Assembly (NCBI RefSeq): GCF_020990385.1
Contig: NZ_CP087598.1
Coordinates: 292,001 to 356,000 of the forward strand
Source: Paracoccus sp. MA
GTDB lineage: Bacteria > Pseudomonadota > Alphaproteobacteria > Rhodobacterales > Rhodobacteraceae
Direction: 5' to 3'
DNA: 64,000 bases
The notes beneath the pieces were generated by a model. That model did no database searches, had not been told where the DNA came from, and was given only the letters and a program-made list of their open reading frames with translations. The position numbers and the translations under genes are program-made. Below are positions 3,807 through 23,641 of the stretch, in pieces; position 1 is the stretch's first letter; every line of letters begins with the position of its first letter.

Positions 3807-4352
3807 GACCGGGGTTGGTCCTGCTATGGCGGTGCCTGTGCGGGAATGGAAATGCTCCGCAGAGTGACCAGCCGAAAGCCAGCTGGTCGATCCTGAACAG
3901 GCTGTGGGGCCTCGGCCAAGAGCTATCGCAAGAAAGATAAGCTACCGGGACTTTCGAGTGCCTCGGATATTCCGATGCCCTTGGCGTACAAGCCAACCCT
4001 GCGCTTAGTAGGTATACGCTATAGGTGCGTCCGAAGATGGGGGCAGAAGATAATGTCCCACCATTCTCATGGTCGGGTTCCAGTCGAAAATTCTCAGATC
4101 AATCGGTTTTCGAGCGATTCCGGGAATTTTTGTCTGGCCAAGTGGAAAATAGCCAGGTTTGGCTCCATTGATTGAGGCATCGGACAAATGCGATGCAAGA
4201 ATGTTTTGCTTTATCCGGCGCGAAGGCGCATACAGGGGGCGCTACGTTGCTTCTCTCTGCATCCTGTCTCCTTTCGGCTTCAGTCTGCTTTTGAACTGAC
4301 CGGGCCGGGTTGCTGCATTCCGCGAGCGACAAATCCACAAGGAGATATCACG
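3807..4352. other. Intergenic region with csp leader
   Basis: About 550 bases without a supported gene. The section 3990-4350 is AT-richer than the surroundings and contains the promoter and long leader of the second cold-shock gene, which ends in a strong AAGGAGATAT ribosome binding site. No insertion sequence end is visible. Confidence 0.45.
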
Positions 4353-4559
4353 ATGGCGAATGGCACCGTGAAATGGTTCAACGCCGCCAAGGGCTTCGGC
4401 TTCATCGCGCCCGAGCATGGCGGCAAGGACGTGTTTCTGCACATTTCGGCCCTCGAGCGGGCCGGGCTTAACAGCGTTGCGGATGGTCAGGCCGTGACCT
4501 TCGAAATCGAGTCGGGCCGCGATGGTCGCGAATCGGCCAGCAGGCTGGCGCTCGCCTGA
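4353..4559 (+). CDS. Cold-shock protein (CspA family), second copy
   Basis: 68-residue cold-shock domain protein beginning [20 protein letters not shown], with RNP1 (KGFGFI) and RNP2 (VFLHIS) intact. It has the same length and most of the same residues as the first copy; differences cluster in the C-terminal third. The AAGGAGATAT ribosome binding site is optimally placed. Expected to bind single-stranded nucleic acid. A 10-bp hairpin at 4570-4593 lies just past the stop codon but lacks a T-run. Confidence 0.95.
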
Positions 4560-4613
4560 TCCTGTCGAACAGCCTGGCCATCTGGCCGGGCTGAACCCCT
4601 TCGGGAGACCCGT

Positions 4614-4907
4614 ATGTTGGCCAAGGCGAGAAACCTTTTCCGCGACCCTGCGCCCCTGACGGCGATGGATCGCACCACTTCCGAGGCGAAGCTCATCGTC
4701 GATGAACAGGCCCGCAAGAGGAGCGAGCTGACGGCATCCCTCAAGGCTGCACGGTTGGCGAAAGAGGCGGCAGACGCCGCCACCGGCGTGCCTGCGAAAA
4801 ACGCAAGAAATAGCGGATGCGCGGGGGCACCTGCTTTCTTCGCTGTAACGCCGACTCTCCCTACCGCCGAAACGCTGCGCGAAGATGTCTCGATCCATTT
4901 CCCATGA
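4614..4907 (+). CDS. Hypothetical protein, basic helical N-terminus (97 aa)
   Basis: 97 residues with GGGAGACC ahead of the ATG. Residues 1-60 form a charged helical region (MDRTTSEAKLIVDEQ, then KRSELTASLKAARLAKEAADAA). The last third is unlike it: cysteine and proline containing and poorly structured. That may mark a frame disturbance or a poorly conserved tail. Family not recognised. It follows the cold-shock gene by 54 bases and could share its transcript. Confidence 0.4.
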   Translation: MLAKARNLFRDPAPLTAMDRTTSEAKLIVDEQARKRSELTASLKAARLAKEAADAATGVPAKNARNSGCAGAPAFFAVTPTLPTAETLREDVSIHFP

Positions 4908-5066
4908 TTCCGATTGGACGGGATGCAGGGGATATTCATCTTTTTTAGGCCAGCGCTAGCCGGCTTGACGGCGGACAGTCTCCCGCGCTTTTCCTGTGCC
5001 TTTTATCAGCCAGACAGGGGCTTTCCCGGCGCACGAAAGAGGCCGCACTCGCGGTGCTTTCACCCC

Positions 5067-5094
5067 CTTGAACCGCCATTTCCTCGCCCTAAAT
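5067..5094 (+). promoter_or_regulatory. Candidate sigma-32 (RpoH) heat-shock promoter
   Basis: CCCTTGAA (CTTGAA core at 5067-5072) is followed after 14 bases by CCCTAAAT at 5087-5094. The RpoH consensus is CTTGAA, 13-15 bases, CCCCATnT. The site lies about 105 bases before the start codon of the small heat-shock gene, which fits its expected regulation. Confidence 0.6.
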
Positions 5095-5199
5095 CGTGGA
5101 TCGCCGGAAGCCTTGAACGGGTCCGGCATGCCGGGGCGGATGCAACGGCACCGCACGGCGAAAGACTTGTATCCATGTTGCTCAACGGAGGATGTGGCT
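5095..5199 (+). ncRNA. ROSE-like RNA thermometer in the hsp20 leader
   Basis: The last hairpin of this leader, 5173-5197, hides the ribosome binding site. CCAT pairs with GTGG, then TTGCTC faces GAGGAT across an AACG loop. In that pairing G5080 faces G5091 and T5078 faces T5093 as mismatches, while G5077 is bulged. A UUGCU segment opposite the Shine-Dalgarno, a G-G pair and a bulged G are hallmarks of ROSE thermometers of alphaproteobacterial small heat-shock genes, which melt on heating. The upstream part of the leader was not folded in detail. Confidence 0.6.
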
Positions 5200-5223
5200 A
5201 TGAGAACCACTTTCGACTTTTCC

Positions 5224-5232
5224 CCTCTCTAC
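5224..5232. repeat. Target site duplication, left copy
   Basis: CCTCTCTAC, repeated exactly at 6283-6291 on the other side of the insertion sequence. A 9-bp duplication is typical of the IS903 subgroup of IS5. Confidence 0.95.
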
Positions 5233-6282
5233 GGCTCTGTTGCATAACTCAGGTGATGGGCGCGGTTACCCCCTCCCCGGACAGACTTATCCTACAGCTT
5301 CCGTGACCGGGATGCCGAGCGCGGTGTAGCCGTTCAGGACGGCGATGCGGATCTGGAACTCGGCGACCTGACGGTCGAAGTCCCTTGCCATGAGCCGCTG
5401 GCCCAGCAGTTTGACACAATGCATCTTCGTCTCGATGCGGCTCCGGCGGTGGTATCCACTCCATCGTCGCCACAGGGTGCGGCCGAGATACCTGGACGCC
5501 CGGAGGGCCTCGTTGCGCGCGACGGCTCCAGCGGTGATGGTCTTCCAGGTCTTCGCGTTCCTGCGCGGTGGGATGACGGCATGGGCTCCGCGATCTGCAA
5601 TCGCATCGTGGCACTTGCGCGTGTCGTAGGCGCCATCTGCCGTGACGCTACCGATTTCCTGGTCCTCCGGGATCTGGTCGAGAAGGTCAGGTAGGATCGG
5701 CGCATCGCCGACGTTGCTCCCGGTGATCTCGACAGCCCGGATCTCTAGCGTTTCCTCGTCGATCCCAAGGTGGATCTTGCGCCAGACCCGCCGTTTGGGG
5801 CCACCATGCTTGCGAGCGTGCCACTCGCCTTCGCCCTCGACCTTGATTCCTGTGCTGTCGATCAGCAGGTGCAGCGGCCCTTTGGAGCCGCGATACGGGA
5901 TGTTCACAGCCAAGGTCTTCTGGCGGCGGGACAGTGTGCTGAAGTCAGGCACCGTCCCGTCGAGGCCAACCAGACGCAGCAGGCTCTCGACGAACCCGGT
6001 CGTCTGCCGGAGCGCCATGCCGAATAGCACCTTCATCGTCAGGCAGCTCTGAATGGCAGTATCGCTGTAGGTCTGCTGGCGGCCACGCCTCCCCGTCGGC
6101 ACGGCATCCCAGCTCATCTCGGGGTCGAACCAGATCGTCAGCGAGCCCCGGCGCTTGAGCGCTTCATTGTAGGCTGGCCAGTTTCTGGTCCTGTAGGTTG
6201 GCGGTGTGGGTCTGCTCATACATCACAGCTACCACCCTGGATTCACGATCTGAATCCCTGACGGGATTTGTGCAACAGAGCC
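5233..6282 (-). mobile_element. IS903-type insertion sequence (IS5 family), complete
   Basis: 1050 bp, ending in 18-bp inverted repeats that begin GGCTCTGTTGCA and differ at 2 positions. It carries a single transposase gene and is flanked by a 9-bp duplication. Length, ends, duplication size and a single-frame transposase of about 310 residues all fit the IS903 subgroup. Identical flanking repeats and an intact transposase point to a fairly recent insertion. Confidence 0.95.
5287..6219 (-). CDS. IS5-family (IS903 group) DDE transposase
   Basis: 310 residues, full length for the IS903 group. The catalytic triad is visible: Asp121 in LLIDSTGIK, Asp195 in VTADGAYDTR, and Glu263 in RRSRIETKMHC, each in the family's usual sequence context. 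The N-terminal portion (residues 1-100) carries the DNA-binding part. It is the only gene of the element and is transcribed against the interrupted hsp20. No frameshift or internal stop, so it is probably active. Confidence 0.95.
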   Translation of the reverse strand: MSRPTPPTYRTRNWPAYNEALKRRGSLTIWFDPEMSWDAVPTGRRGRQQTYSDTAIQSCLTMKVLFGMALRQTTGFVESLLRLVGLDGTVPDFSTLSRRQKTLAVNIPYRGSKGPLHLLIDSTGIKVEGEGEWHARKHGGPKRRVWRKIHLGIDEETLEIRAVEITGSNVGDAPILPDLLDQIPEDQEIGSVTADGAYDTRKCHDAIADRGAHAVIPPRRNAKTWKTITAGAVARNEALRASRYLGRTLWRRWSGYHRRSRIETKMHCVKLLGQRLMARDFDRQVAEFQIRIAVLNGYTALGIPVTEAVG

Positions 6283-15413: not shown

Positions 15414-16142
15414 TCATTCCCGCGTCTTGAAGCGCCAGCTCTCGTTGCCGGTCTCGACGATGTCACAGTGATGGGTCAGTCGGTCGAGGAGCGCCGTTGT
15501 CATCTTCGCGTCTCCGAAGACGGTCGGCCATTCGCCGAAGTCGAGGTTCGTCGTCACGATGATCGAGGTGCGTTCGTAAAGGCGACTGATGAGGTGGAAC
15601 AGGAGCTGGCCACCCGTCTGGGCGAACGGCAGATATCCCAACTCGTCGAGGATCAGGAAGTCGAGGCGGCACAGGAGATCCGCAGTGCGTCCCTGTCGGT
15701 CGGCGCGGGCTTCGGCGTCCAGCTTGTTCACCAGGTCCACGACGTTGAAGAAGCGGCCGCGCTTGCCACGGCGGATGCAGGCCCGGGCGATGCTGACGGC
15801 AAGGTGGGATTTGCCGGTCCCGGTGCCGCCGATGAGGACGACGTTACGCTGATGCTCGAGGAACTCTCCGGAGGCCAGATCGCGCACCAGCGTTTCGTTT
15901 ACGGGCGTGTCTTCGAAGCTGAACTCGTCGACTTCCTTGGCCAAGGGCAGCTTGGCGATGGTCATCTGGTATTTGATCGAGCGAGCTTGTTTCTCGCTGA
16001 TCTCGGCGTTCAGCAGGTCGCCCACGATTTGCTGCGGTTCGTGCTGTCGCTTCACCGCCGTGGCGATGATCTCATCGTAGGCGGCCTTCATGCCGTAGAG
16101 CTTCAACTGGCCCATCGCGTCCAGCACCTGTGATCTTTCCAT
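15414..16142 (-). CDS. istB: IstB-like ATPase, IS21 transposition helper
   Basis: 242 residues, a DnaC-related AAA+ ATPase. Walker A is [11 protein letters not shown] (about residues 105-115) and Walker B is [14 protein letters not shown] (about 165-178). IstB assembles on target DNA and activates the IstA transposase. Length and motifs are those of complete family members. Its start overlaps the end of istA by 71 bases in another frame, the usual compact IS21 arrangement. Confidence 0.97.
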
Positions 16143-17640
16143 GGCGGGGTCTCCTGAGGCTGTCGTAGCGTTTGCAGTCGGCCACGGGCTCGCAGGTCAG
16201 GCGCAACGCGTCCGGCGTGGCGATGGTCAACGGAGGTGGTGGCTCGCGATGTCGGGCCAGGATGTTCAGAACGACCGATGCCGCCGGGGCGCCTTCGGTC
16301 AGGGCCTCGACGCAGGCAGCCTCGACGGCTTCCAGTCCATCCGTTGGGATCATGCTCAGGATCTGGACCATCTGACGGTCACCGTTCGGCACGCGCCCCA
16401 GCTTACGCTGGACGCGTCGTATCGCCGGCGGCAGTTCCCATTCCTTGAAGGGAGCGCCGTTTCGAAGGGCGCCGGGCTTGCGGGCCAGCACCGGGATGTA
16501 GTGCAGCGGGTCATAGATGGCCTTGTCGCGCCCGAAGGCGCGGTCGTGCCGGCCGACGATCTTGCCGTCCTGCCAGACCTCGACCCGCTCGGCATAGGCG
16601 CGGATCTCGACCGGACGGCCGACGGCGCGACCATCGACCGAGTAGCGGTTCTTGTCGAACCTAACGAGGCAGGTCTTGGACACCGAGGCCGGCACGGCAT
16701 GGAATCCGTCGAAAGGGCCGACGTAGGGCACCAGGCTCGCCCGCTCATCCTGGAACACGTCCCAGATTGTCCGATCACGCAATTCCTGGTGCGGATGGGC
16801 CTTGGCCCAGGCAATACAGCGATCCTGAAGCCAGGCGTTGAGTTCCGCGTAGCTCTTGAAGCGCGGCCGCGGCACGAAGAACCGCCGCCGGACAACGCCA
16901 ACCTGGTTCTCTACTTGTCCCTTCTCCCAGCCGGACGCGGGGGTGCAGGCGACGGGATCGACAAGGTAGTGTCCGCACATCTGCTGGAACCGGCGATTAT
17001 ACGCGCGGTCGCGGCCGACGAAGATCGTGTCCACCGCCGTCTTCATGTTGTCGTAGATCCCACGCGCACAGGCGCCGCCGAAGAAGGCAAAGGCCTTGTC
17101 ATGGGCATCGAACACCATTTCCTGCGTCTCTCGCGGGTAGGCCCGGACGAACAGCATCCGGCTATGACAAAGCCGGACGTGAGCCACCTTCACCGTGGTG
17201 GTCACGCCGTCGATCAGAACGACCTCGTGACTCCAGTCGAACTGGTAGGCTTCACCCGGATCGAAGCTCAGTGGCACATAGGCGGCGGCTGACGCTTCCT
17301 GCTCCGCCTGCGACCACGAAGCCGCATAGCGTCGGACCGCGTCGTAGCCGCCGTCATATCCGAGGGCCCTGAGCTCTTCGAAAATCCGGATGCGGGTCAG
17401 CCGCTCGCGCTTCGGCTTGCGCGCATTCGCCGCCAGCATCTCGTCGAGCTTGCCTTTCCAGGGACCGATCTTCGGCTGCGGTTGGACGGTTCGCTCGTAA
17501 GTCATCTCCGTTGCGCCGGACCGGATCACCTTCCGAACCGTGTTCCGCGATACCCGCAGCTCTCGGCAGATATGCTTGATCGACTTCTTGTCCTGGAAAT
17601 ACGCCCGGCGGATCTTCGCAATCGTCTCCACAACCAGCAT
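16072..17640 (-). CDS. istA: IS21 transposase IstA
   Basis: 522 residues. An N-terminal HTH ([26 protein letters not shown], about residues 16-41) is followed by an rve-type DDE integrase domain: [12 protein letters not shown] (first Asp, about 134), then [11 protein letters not shown] (second Asp), then [16 protein letters not shown] (Glu). A C-terminal beta-barrel/Mu-like part completes it. It catalyses strand transfer together with IstB. No frameshift; full length. Confidence 0.97.
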
Positions 17641-20609: not shown

Positions 20610-21479
20610 ATGAAGATTTTGAAATACTATGCGCATACGGGTATTCGTGAGGATCGAAGCGATTGGCAATTGCTGGCCGACCATCTCGAGAATACGGCTG
20701 CTCTGGCTGCCGGTCGAGCTGCACCCCTCGGGTTGCCGGCGGCGGCGTATATGGCTGGCCTTTTCCATGACTTTGGCAAATATGACCCCGCCTTTGATCG
20801 TGTCCTGTCCGGCGAAAAATTGCTTGTGGATCATTCGACGGCTGGGGCTGCCCTGCTGCATGCCCGGACGCCTGCCGGTTTGCGGCCAATTTCTGAAGTG
20901 ATCGGCTATGCTATTCTGGGCCATCACGCCGGGTTGCCTGATCGCCATGGCGGCGACAGCAGTATGGAGCGCCGGCTTGAGACCTTCCGCGACCCGATCG
21001 CGCCGGAAATCTCGGCCGCGGCCAGCCCAGATTTTGGCCCGGTTGCCAGGGAACTGGCTAAGCTGATGCGCCCGGCATCTTGCGGCTTCGACCTGTCGGT
21101 CGCGGCGCGCATGGTGTTTTCCTGTCTGGTCGATGCCGATTTCCGCGATACCGAGTCCTTCTATGCCGGGCTGAACGGCACGCGGCCGGATCGCGACTGG
21201 CCGGCCCTGGCCGATCTGTTGCCGGAATGGAGAGACGCCTTCGGTGCGCATATGGCGGGGTTTCGCCAGAATGGCCGCATCAACCGCCTGCGCGCCGAGA
21301 TCCTGATCCATGTCCGGCAGGCTGCGGCGATGGCGCCGGGGCTTTTCACGCTGACCGTGCCCACCGGCGGCGGCAAGACGCTGGCTTCACTGGGCTTTGC
21401 GTTGGACCACGCGGCACGTCATGGGCATCGCAGGATTATCTTTGCGATCCCTTACGCGGGGGCGGGGATCGAAACCTGA
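20610..21479 (+). pseudogene. cas3: Type I-C CRISPR nuclease-helicase Cas3, truncated
   Basis: 289 codons. The N-terminal HD nuclease domain is complete: HLENTA, GLFHDFGKYDP, DHSTAGAALLHA and ILGHHAGLPD carry the metal-binding His and Asp residues. The helicase begins normally with Walker A (FTLTVPTGGGKTLASLGFALDHA, about residues 247-269) and HRRIIFAIPY. It then breaks off at Tyr284, where Cas3 normally continues TSIIEQ. The next codons (AGAGIET) are read from a CRISPR repeat, then a stop. Full-length Cas3 is about 700-800 residues, so all later helicase motifs are missing. An isolated HD nuclease could still fold, but the interference function is gone. Confidence 0.92.
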
Positions 21480-21620
21480 ACACGGACACGCTGCGCATGC
21501 GCTACAACCCGTCGCTCCCTTCGCGGGGGCGGGGATCGAAACATCGAGGAGTGCCTGCATTGGAAGCGCACCTTCCGCGTCGCCCCCTTCGGTCGAAAGG
21601 GGGCGCAAAGTGAACGAAAC
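21444..21620 (+). CRISPR. Relict type I-C CRISPR array, two spacers
   Basis: One full 32-nt repeat at 21511-21542 starts GTCGCTCCCTTCGC and ends GGGGATCGAAAC, the type I-C repeat form. A partial repeat at 21444-21475 shares its last 21 bases exactly; its 5' part is replaced by cas3 codons. A degenerate end copy at 21579-21620 begins GTCGCCCCCTTCG and ends GAAAC. The spacers are 35 nt (21476-21510) and 36 nt (21543-21578), typical of type I-C. No other cas gene is present. Confidence 0.88.
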
Positions 21621-21675: not shown

Positions 21676-21749
21676 TGGAGGCGGGTACCGGAATCGAACC
21701 GGTCTTCACGGATTTGCAATCCGCTGCGTAACCTCTCCGCCAACCCGCC
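21676..21749 (-). tRNA. trnC: tRNA-Cys (GCA)
   Basis: 74 nt including an encoded CCA. The acceptor GGCGGGT pairs with ACCCGCC, the discriminator is T, and the anticodon GCA lies in ATTGCAAAT. The T-arm GGTTCGATTCC is standard. It lies 56 bases from the end of the CRISPR relic. Confidence 0.97.
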
Positions 21750-21855: not shown

Positions 21856-23118
21856 TCAGCGATAGATATGGTCCCGCCGGAACGGATAGGCGGATTGCGC
21901 GCCGGGCAGGTCCGGGGTTGCCAGGCTCGGATCGGGGCGGATCAGCAGGATCTGGTAAAGCGCCACCCAGCCCTGCTCGAAGGCCAGCGCGCAGCCCGCC
22001 AGATACAGCCGATAGGCCTGCAGCACCTCGGAGGCGCGGTTCGGCGGCATCGAGCGCGCCAGAACCCGCTCGGCCTCGGGCAGCTGCGCTTCCAGCGCGT
22101 CGGACCAGGCCCAAAGCGTGCGCGCGTAATGCGGCCGCAGGTTTTCGGTATCGACCATTTCCAGCCCGGCCTGGGACATGCTGCGGATGGCCTGGCTGAC
22201 ATGGATCAGCTCGCCGCCCGGGAAGATGTATTTCTCGATGAAATCGCCCAGGCCGCCGCCGACCATGGCATCGTCCAGCCCCGAGGCGGCGATGCCGTGG
22301 TTCAGCGCCAGCCCGCCGGGGCGCAGCAGGCGGCGCAGGGTCTCGCAATAGGTGCCCATCCTGGCGCGGCCCACATGCTCGAACATCCCCACCGAGGCGA
22401 GCTTGTCGAAAGGCCGCCCCGGCTCGAGATCGCGATAGTCGCACAGCAGGATGCGAACCCGGTCGCCCAGGCCCTCCTCGGCGATGATGCGGCTGACATG
22501 GTCGAACTGGTTCTGCGACAGGGTGATGCCGGTGGCATCGACGCCGTAATGGCGCGCGGCATGCAGCAAAAGCCCGCCCCAGCCGGCGCCGATATCGACG
22601 AAACGCTCGCCCGGGCGCAGGTCCAGCTTGCGGCAGATCAGGTCCAGCTTGGCCTCTTGCGCCTGCGCCAGCGTCATCTGCGGCTCGGCGAAATAGGCGC
22701 AGGAATAGACCCGGCGCGGATCGAGCCAGAGCGCGTAGAACTCGTCCGAGACGTCGTAATGCGCGCGGATCTGCCTTGCGTCGCGGCCGCGGCTGTGGCG
22801 CAGCACCGAAAGCAGGTGATTGGACAGCCGCTGCCAGGGCTTCGGTGTGACCGGCTGGCCGTCCTGGGGCACCAGCGCCGCGACGATCCGCATCAGGTCG
22901 CGCATCGAGCCCTCGATCCGGGCGCGGCCGCGGACGATCTCGTCGCCCAGCCGCCCCAGCCGGGCCGAGGCCAGCGGTGCCAGCGCGGCCATGTCCTTGA
23001 AGGTGATGGTGACCCGCGCGTCGGGCGGGCCCAGCCGCCGCCCCGAGGGCAGGTGCACCGCCAAGGGGACCGAGAGCTGTTGCAGTTTCCGTTCGATCAG
23101 AGCTTCCAGAGCCGGCAT
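21856..23118 (-). CDS. cfa: Cyclopropane-fatty-acyl-phospholipid synthase
   Basis: 420 residues. The SAM-binding motif is FVDIGAGWGGLLLHAARHYG, followed by GITLSQNQ. The family blocks HYDVSDEFYALWLD, YSCAYF and KLASVGMFEHVG are present, as is a C-terminal YIFPGGELIHVSQ. The enzyme transfers a methylene group from SAM to the double bond of unsaturated acyl chains in membrane phospholipids, typically on entry into stationary phase or acid stress. The start at 23118 has AGGTGATC; the open frame upstream of it includes non-coding DNA. Length is close to the roughly 400 expected. Confidence 0.95.
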   Translation of the reverse strand: MPALEALIERKLQQLSVPLAVHLPSGRRLGPPDARVTITFKDMAALAPLASARLGRLGDEIVRGRARIEGSMRDLMRIVAALVPQDGQPVTPKPWQRLSNHLLSVLRHSRGRDARQIRAHYDVSDEFYALWLDPRRVYSCAYFAEPQMTLAQAQEAKLDLICRKLDLRPGERFVDIGAGWGGLLLHAARHYGVDATGITLSQNQFDHVSRIIAEEGLGDRVRILLCDYRDLEPGRPFDKLASVGMFEHVGRARMGTYCETLRRLLRPGGLALNHGIAASGLDDAMVGGGLGDFIEKYIFPGGELIHVSQAIRSMSQAGLEMVDTENLRPHYARTLWAWSDALEAQLPEAERVLARSMPPNRASEVLQAYRLYLAGCALAFEQGWVALYQILLIRPDPSLATPDLPGAQSAYPFRRDHIYR

Positions 23119-23315
23119 GATCACCTCACGCTTGACTGGCCGCGATTCGGGGGATTGTGGTTGCGAGGCGCGGCAGCTTGTTCCTGACGGCTGTCCCGGA
23201 TGTGGCAGCCGGGGCAACTCCGGTGCCATACTAGCGCCGATTCGCCGAAAATGGCCAGAGCCCGGGTGACAGGTCTGCCGCAGGTTGATCCTGCTGCGCG
23301 GAAACGGGTGCCGGA

Positions 23316-23342
23316 AAAGCAAAAAGCGGCCCGAAAGGCCGC
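23316..23342 (-). terminator. Terminator downstream of tRNA-Gly
   Basis: On the minus strand, GCGGCC-TTTCG-GGCCGC is followed by TTTTTGCTTTT. It lies 28 bases past the 3' end of the tRNA. Confidence 0.88.
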
Positions 23343-23369
23343 CTCTTCGCCGATCCCGAAGGAAGAATT

Positions 23370-23444
23370 TGGAGCGGGCGATGAGATTCGAACTCACGAC
23401 CCTTACCTTGGCAAGGTAATGCTCTACCCCTGAGCTACGCCCGC
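23370..23444 (-). tRNA. trnG: tRNA-Gly (GCC)
   Basis: 75 nt including encoded CCA. The acceptor GCGGGCG pairs with CGCCCGC, the anticodon GCC lies in CTTGCCAAG, and the T-arm GAGTTCGAATCTC is standard. Confidence 0.97.
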
Positions 23445-23641
23445 GCTCCGTTCCGATGACGCTTCGCCTTCGGTGAGGCGTCATTTATGGGAGCGCGCCG
23501 GGGGGTGCAAGGGGAAAAATCGCGCGGCCGGGAAAATTTTCGCGCCATGCTCCGGGCCGGCGCGAAAGCCCTCCGCAACGGGCGCGGCGGGCTTGACCGG
23601 AGGCCCGGCTTGCCGAAACCTGCCGGCCAGAGGGGACGCCG

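Follow-up and report, generated by a model that had tools for sequence, protein, structure and literature searches.

The 64,000-nucleotide stretch of Paracoccus sp. MA DNA analysed here (the window) contains the beginning of a type I-C cas3 gene that runs directly into a CRISPR repeat. This locus raises the question of how a CRISPR-Cas system came to be reduced to such a remnant, and whether the event was peculiar to this strain or one instance of a process that strikes the same places repeatedly. The anatomy of the collapse and its recurrence can be stated firmly; the mechanism calls for a more graded answer.

The open reading frame left from cas3 (20610-21479, forward strand) encodes 289 aa. 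Its best PADLOC match is Cas3c (5.7e-70, residues 3-283 being aligned with positions 10-223 of the 612-position profile), and it scores 91.5 bits with the NCBIfam Cas3'' HD model (cut-off 43.45) and 24.4 bits with the Pfam HD model (cut-off 22). The protein is 96% identical to the Cas3 of the relative G014 and, over its first 282 residues, 94% identical to the full-length Cas3 of G013, a member of the same genus. The complete helicase is missing: native residues stop at codon 282, compared with the 742 codons of the G013 gene, and the fragment terminates within the first RecA domain, past motif Ia (motif Ia, Walker A and helicase motif being names that we assume to apply to the cas3 sites discussed here). 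At the junction, the cas3 frame reads ATT ATC TTT GCG ATC CCT TA and is directly followed by CGCGGGGGCGGGGATCGAAAC, the 21 bases with which the repeat GTCGCTCCCTTCGCGGGGGCGGGGATCGAAAC ends; the register agrees with that of the junctions in other species described below. Re-reading of the sequence, together with the Cas3 and HD profile matches, bears out an earlier, sequence-only reading of the locus, according to which the frame passes through the HD domain and Walker A to IIFAIPY and then into the last 21 bases of a repeat; the two spacers and the degenerate end repeat that it had described were located as well (Table 1).

Table 1. Features of the collapsed locus and its flank in the window (the slash marks the point of joining)
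Feature	Positions	Strand	Remark
5' part of type I-C cas3 (HD nuclease domain, Walker A, motif Ia to IIFAIPY)	20610..21454	+	
Deletion junction CCCTTA/CGCGGGG (between 21454 and 21455)	21452..21457	+	Joins the motif Ia codons to the repeat on its hairpin-loop side
Partial type I-C repeat, last 21 bases	21455..21475	+	
Spacer 1, 35 nt	21476..21510	+	Matches a phage major head gene (33/35, 5' flank TTC)
Complete 32-nt repeat	21511..21542	+	30/32 identical to the G013 repeat
Spacer 2, 36 nt	21543..21578	+	No target match
Degenerate terminal repeat, palindrome kept (GTCGCCCCCTTCGGTCGAAAGGGGGCG)	21579..21605	+	
tRNA-Cys	21676..21749	-	Downstream of the locus also in G013 and G014; close by but inverted in G039 and G059
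cfa-like gene (CMAS domain)	21856..23484	-	Downstream also in G013 and G014; far from cas3 in G039

The repeat of the window shows the hallmarks of type I-C, namely a length of about 32 nt, a hairpin and a GGATCGAAAC end, and the viral match of spacer 1 marks the remnant as that of a real type I-C array. The protospacer of spacer 1 lies on a viral contig of IMG/VR (L129:8009-8043) with TTC, given as the type I-C PAM in PMC8406640, immediately 5' of it; the gene that contains it encodes a major head protein (PHROGs, 2.8e-75), the Pfam search of this gene giving no match. Spacer 2 had no match in IMG/VR, and a 5' TTC was found for spacer 1 only. Neither spacer had a convincing target among phage and plasmid records, where spacer 1 gave five weak Azospirillum matches (E 0.3). 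The spacer search suggested earlier was therefore productive for one spacer and fruitless for the other. Like orphan CRISPR arrays, the array of the window is left without a cas operon; it differs from them in that its origin can be read as a single precise junction with cas3.

The intact counterpart of this locus is found in G013, where a single strand carries cas3-cas5c-cas8c-cas7-cas4-cas1c-cas2-array (NCBIfam models), the operon order expected for type I-C and the one assumed in the sequence-only reading. The G013 array has 90 repeats by our count, of the type GTCGCCCCCTTCGCGGGGGCGTGGATCGAAAC, and the tRNA-Cys/cfa stretch lies about 3 kb past it, oriented relative to cas3 as in the window; the proposal that a relative should hold a full I-C locus near these two genes thus proved right. 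The two loci have their neighbourhood, cas3 (94%) and repeat (30/32) in common, but in the window all that lies between cas3 codon 283 and the array is missing, and two spacers are retained, versus the 90 repeats counted in G013. On the G013 map, the equivalent cas3 base is 7,038 bases from the centre of the first repeat and 12,927 bases from that of the last, and these distances would bracket the size of the deletion if the ancestor of the window resembled G013.

The genome of the window (G000) gave no match to Cas1 (PF01867) or Cas8c (TIGR01863), the two proteins searched for. Among the 13 genomes examined, Cas8c was also not found in G039, G118, G014, G059, G106 and G420, and G074 and G121 hold only sub-threshold scraps of it, while all four intact controls (G013, G032, G060 and G120) possess it. 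The G013 locus and the lack of Cas1 and Cas8c matches in G000 uphold the view that one deletion runs from inside cas3 to an array repeat, with the refinement that this repeat need not have been the first. The protospacer and PAM of spacer 1, the full operon of G013 and the occurrence of like junctions in complete genomes of other species argue against chance or an assembly artefact. We consider it probable, though by no means certain, that a working I-C locus collapsed here through a single deletion of about 7 kb or more, and that this is a case of recurrent precise collapse at a hairpin loop and fixed cas3 codons.

The earlier interpretation did not include the recurrence of the break, at the same codon, in many independent lineages. 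In a survey limited by design to short proteins, which gave 1,036 Cas3 relatives, 40 of the best 120 carry the join in exact register (39 recognized by a script and P0112 by eye), that is, IP[YF] or LPF followed by three residues and [WRG]I[EK][TA], the repeat being read in the frame VAPFAGAWIET; P0019 stops after the I. Four others (P0002, P0014, P0020 and P0091) appear by eye to share this point of joining, either in a different frame or, for P0002, with a degenerate end repeat as the partner. The remainder of the 120 have repeat peptides elsewhere (5), have none (67) or are missing the Walker A motif (4). The repeat-derived letters vary from protein to protein (TGAWIET, TEARIET, AGAGIET, TRARIET and others), indicating that different repeats were involved, and the tail that follows IET is spacer-derived and differs between species. 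The 260-aa protein P0002, from a contig of 53,662 bases, has a near-identical (95%) cas3 5' end that, as read from the protein only, apparently continues from that codon into the degenerate end repeat, which would mean that the array is entirely gone.

A degenerate pattern made from the junction, which also admitted the I-C repeats of other groups, was run over a genome collection and gave 11 matches. By tblastn, a Cas3 N-terminus runs into the junction in 10 of them; the flank of the eleventh, L080, is cas3-like by eye only, and the L086 stretch ends 174 bases short of the pattern. The organisms concerned are Paracoccus solventivorans, P. kondratievae, P. mutanolyticus, P. versutus, Haematobacter, Chelativorans, Mesorhizobium, Rhizobium, Neorhizobium, Hephaestia and a Rhizobiales MAG, all of which we take to be Alphaproteobacteria. 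In seven of the 11 loci, and also in G121 when the reading is extended, another repeat of like type lies past the junction. Five of the 11 matches come from the genomes G074, G039, G121, G118 and G420 of the samples described next, so that the scan and the genus and family counts are not independent. In the Rhizobium MAG (L085), the collapsed locus retains an array in which we counted 41 repeat ends, starting at the junction.

Within the genus sample, 33 of 125 Paracoccus genomes match the full-length G013 Cas3. The cas3 gene is joined to a repeat at codons 282/283 (spot 1) in five of the 125 (G000, G039, G074, G118 and G121) and at LDSCV/Q, around codon 543 (spot 2), in two (G059 and G106); in the genus loci that were read to their ends, no repeat-joined truncation was seen beyond these two spots, several short decayed cas3 matches (for instance in G030, G061, G094 and G095) occurring besides. 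G014, the nearest relative with cas3 intact at the site of the window junction, breaks at spot 2 too, but its partner is an integrase-like remnant next to tRNA-Cys. The family sample (27 of 394 genomes with a Cas3 match) added one spot-1 case, G420. In the class sample of 385 genomes, 17 Cas3 matches fell below 1e-60, in 16 genomes, and that of G000 was the sole one to end before position 549 of the 612-position profile. When the survey of short proteins was repeated with a non-alphaproteobacterial query, from N. vulgaris, none of the best 120 of 2,401 Cas3 proteins had the fusion and three had repeat peptides elsewhere; two proteins of this list also stand on the first, at least one (P0205) is labelled Alphaproteobacteria, and the control query was without the seven fusion residues AGAGIET in which the first one ended. 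The collapse is biased toward the alphaproteobacterial clade.

The wide occurrence of one junction could also mean that a single ancient fused allele moved between species by transfer and homologous recombination, wiping out resident operons; gene transfer agents, which are typical of alphaproteobacteria, are an example of a suitable vehicle. The nearly identical register everywhere is what such a spread would produce, as is the confinement of the scan matches to one clade and their lack of counterparts among the best 120 of 2,401 proteins of the N. vulgaris survey. Comparison of the alleles themselves speaks against it. Over the last 300 bases before the junction, the fused allele of G121 differs from the intact gene of G120 at 6 of 240 positions and at 1 of the final 60, versus 59-68 (of 240) and 13-16 (of the last 60) differences from four other fused alleles. 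G000 and G014 differ at four of the last 60 bases, and the alleles closest to that of the window are the fused P0001 and P0002, followed by G014 and G013, both intact at spot 1. Fused alleles thus track their own intact relatives up to the junction, and the repeat half matches the array of the same genome wherever a second repeat is readable.

The phylogeny leads to the same conclusion. In a tree of 134 Cas3 N-termini, 50 of them fused (including four recognized by eye; P0052 and P0078 were unusable, and G121 and P0060 were excluded for their shortness), the fused state, treated as irreversible, was gained 33 times; collapsing branches with SH-aLRT below 80 left 26 gains, and collapsing those below 95 still left 16. 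Shuffled labels gave a mean of 43 gains on the full 134-row tree. The spot-1 collapse arose many times independently, and the spread of a single fused allele, rejected on the local identity to intact relatives and on the tree, is in our judgement very improbable.

Could recurrence reflect nothing more than sequence shared by cas3 and the repeat? An ordinary microhomology-mediated deletion, with polymerase slippage at the common CCCTT, would recur wherever the best-matching stretch lies, and the sequence-only reading had pointed out short homology at the junction. Near the join, both partners do contain CCCCT/CCCTT, and several species have C.C in common there; the match noted earlier is thus real, but CCCTT is one base out of register. 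With G014 as parent, cas3 and the repeat have no base in common at the exact join TTA/CGC, and a run of one base in the register of the other species; this run is equalled or beaten at 836 of 1596 cas3 positions, and the left-side match is equalled at 745. With G120 as parent of G121, the run is two bases, equalled or beaten at 491 of 2195 positions, and 1048 match as well on the left. About half of the positions in the G014 gene therefore match the repeat as well as the one used, and longer matches remain unused, so that short homology is not supported as the cause.

The comparison is somewhat more favourable to homology in G013, where 7 of 14 bases agree in the register (equalled at 159 of 2227 positions) and only 232 of 2205 positions equal spot 1 in similarity over the 12 bases on the left, which leaves room for a weak contribution: similarity may help without deciding. 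By local alignment of the repeat with the G013 cas3, however, the used site ranks only seventh, with exact 10-base matches elsewhere in the gene, and in G060 it ranks lower still. Counted by register, 146-497 positions are as good in each of five genes. Nine bases of the G013 leader match the reverse of the cas3 site, but in four other leaders no such match falls at that site, and its length is at about chance level. Homology at the join amounts to 0-3 bases and does not single out spot 1; the local-alignment ranking and the null counts disfavour microhomology as a sufficient cause, and we regard such a deletion as an improbable explanation.

The break sites do have some DNA features in common. 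Wherever the repeat is readable, its side of the junction opens at or beside the hairpin loop and the 3' arm is kept. Spot 1 is an AT-rich, weakly structured patch: in 25 intact genes (2 of 27 could not be placed), a median of only 2% of 40-nt windows are lower in GC and 7% of 60-nt windows less structured. At spot 2, weak structure is absent from four of the five genes in which the spot was located, which leaves no consistent DNA-structure signal there. The N. vulgaris cas3 is likewise low in GC at the site, yet its survey gave no fusion among the best 120 of 2,401, which implies that composition is not enough. Ku was found in 12 of the 13 genomes examined and not in G039, so the joining does not depend on Ku in every case.

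The collapse that we favour would accordingly be read from these features as follows. A functional cas3-cas5c-cas8c-cas7-cas4-cas1-cas2-leader-array locus would lose, by a single deletion spanning about 7 kb or more, everything from cas3 codon 282/283 to the centre of an array repeat, leaving a truncated Cas3, two spacers and an end repeat. Two favoured break points, the repeat hairpin loop and fixed cas3 codons, would be joined again and again, the cas3 side being mostly the motif Ia codons IP[YF]T and sometimes the region around codon 543 (LDSCV/Q). The joined ends share 0-3 bases. We infer that the repeat hairpin extrudes or opens, that strand switching or end joining then attaches its 3' arm to cas3, and that the remnant would be inert after the collapse. 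One property of the junctions counts against this favoured explanation: within a fixed register, the break position varies by 1-3 bases only, which is tighter than ordinary end joining would give.

This precision would suit an enzyme that cuts or recombines and so removes the cas cassette site-specifically, be it an endonuclease or recombinase of a mobile element that targets conserved codons of cas3 or the integrase of the CRISPR system itself, working on a site that resembles a repeat. A near-fixed register with 0-3 bases of homology is what such an activity might leave, and the existence of two separate fixed sites in cas3, each at a helicase motif, the clade bias and the joins to partners other than a repeat (the integrase-like remnant at spot 2 in G014 and an ABC ATPase near spot 1 in P0039) point the same way. 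The 1-3-base shifts of the break speak against it, as does the failure to find a candidate enzyme, a fused junction in IMG/VR, or a reciprocal junction with one pattern in 125 genus genomes and IMG/VR, although assemblies rarely hold circles. All told, we think an enzyme rather unlikely. It is with the same reserve that we entertain a site-directed process opening the cas3 helicase-motif codons and the repeat hairpin loop, and thereby excising the whole cas cassette from alphaproteobacterial I-C loci; that the opening enzyme would then come from invading elements or from the system's own adaptation machinery is a tentative suggestion of similarly low probability.

P0039 itself is a 433-aa protein whose Cas3 N-terminus ends near the motif Ia site and is followed by an ABC-type ATPase, with no repeat. 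Short decayed cas3 fragments lie scattered along the P. mutanolyticus chromosome (G121, L090-L092), far from the collapsed locus; at first sight suggestive of a reciprocal product, they are no more than remnants of decay.

The regularity of the junction might instead reside in its product, if the truncated HD protein were selected for a function and the precise fusion kept or re-selected. The frame of the window is open, the spot-1 frame is mostly the same, and the pairwise dN/dS of the cas3 fragment is 0.25 versus G014 and 0.18 versus G039. Since the divergence from G014, the changes unique to G000 number 11 synonymous and 5 non-synonymous. On its own branch, the truncated gene shows no relaxation of selection, a pattern compatible with recent loss but proof neither of inertness nor of function. 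Selection on a protein, however, is unable to fix a junction to the base; spot 2 is in a different frame, the tail after IET is spacer-derived and variable between species, and in 4 of the 11 collapsed scan loci the cas3 frame is broken (G118 and G121), split (L081) or unrecognisable (L080). To judge by the match to the Cas3'' model, the HD domain of the window resembles that of stand-alone Cas3'' HD nucleases, from which the fragment differs by stopping in RecA1 after motif Ia and by lying in a genome without a Cas8c or Cas1 match. The leftover Cas3 piece is probably inert, and we give hardly any credence to a selected HD product.

Self-targeting of cas3 by a spacer of the array was rejected. 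When 410 spacer entries (some loci being entered twice) were compared with seven intact cas regions and the window, the one collapsed locus of the set, only matches of 15-20 nt were obtained, apart from the array copies of the spacers themselves; two of these (15 and 16 nt), of the order expected by chance, fall within a cas3 gene of a different genome and not at the break site. The closest experimental parallel that we found concerns self-targeting: Vercoe et al. 2013 (PMC3630108) describe deletions caused by CRISPR self-targeting and a model of alternative end joining, the targeted island being lost and three sequenced mutants having the same 7-base joint sequence. The two situations have in common a large deletion with short homology at the joint; they differ in that here the cas genes are lost, the joint comprises 0-3 bases, and the same codon is hit across genera. 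Among the papers listed by the literature searches, judged largely by their abstracts, none was seen to describe a cas3 gene fused to a repeat.

CRISPR-Cas systems are often lost, but the loss usually shows itself only as absence. The scar described here is legible, exact to a few bases and of many origins, and so provides a fixed, PCR-sized test site for the discarding of CRISPR. If DNA structure alone brings about the favoured collapse, the repeats would carry an inherent self-destruct point. Were a site-directed process responsible, CRISPR would be lost by a route that operates at the level of DNA, or through an anti-CRISPR attack aimed at the gene for Cas3, and a nuclease or recombinase behind the collapse would be a new, gene-level way to disarm CRISPR.

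Finally, the neighbourhoods of these loci show some features of their own. An IS21-family pair, istA and istB, lies in the window at 15414-17640 on the reverse strand, about 3 kb upstream of the cas3 remnant. In P. kondratievae (G039, L036), an inverted second cas3 5' end and an inverted tRNA-Cys stretch adjoin the collapsed locus, and the region looks rearranged by insertion elements. In G014 (L034, oriented 4257-6197), LDSCV is joined in frame to what by eye resembles the C-terminal half of a tyrosine recombinase, beside tRNA-Cys; the open frame so formed has 654 aa, and the ATG start is now GGG.
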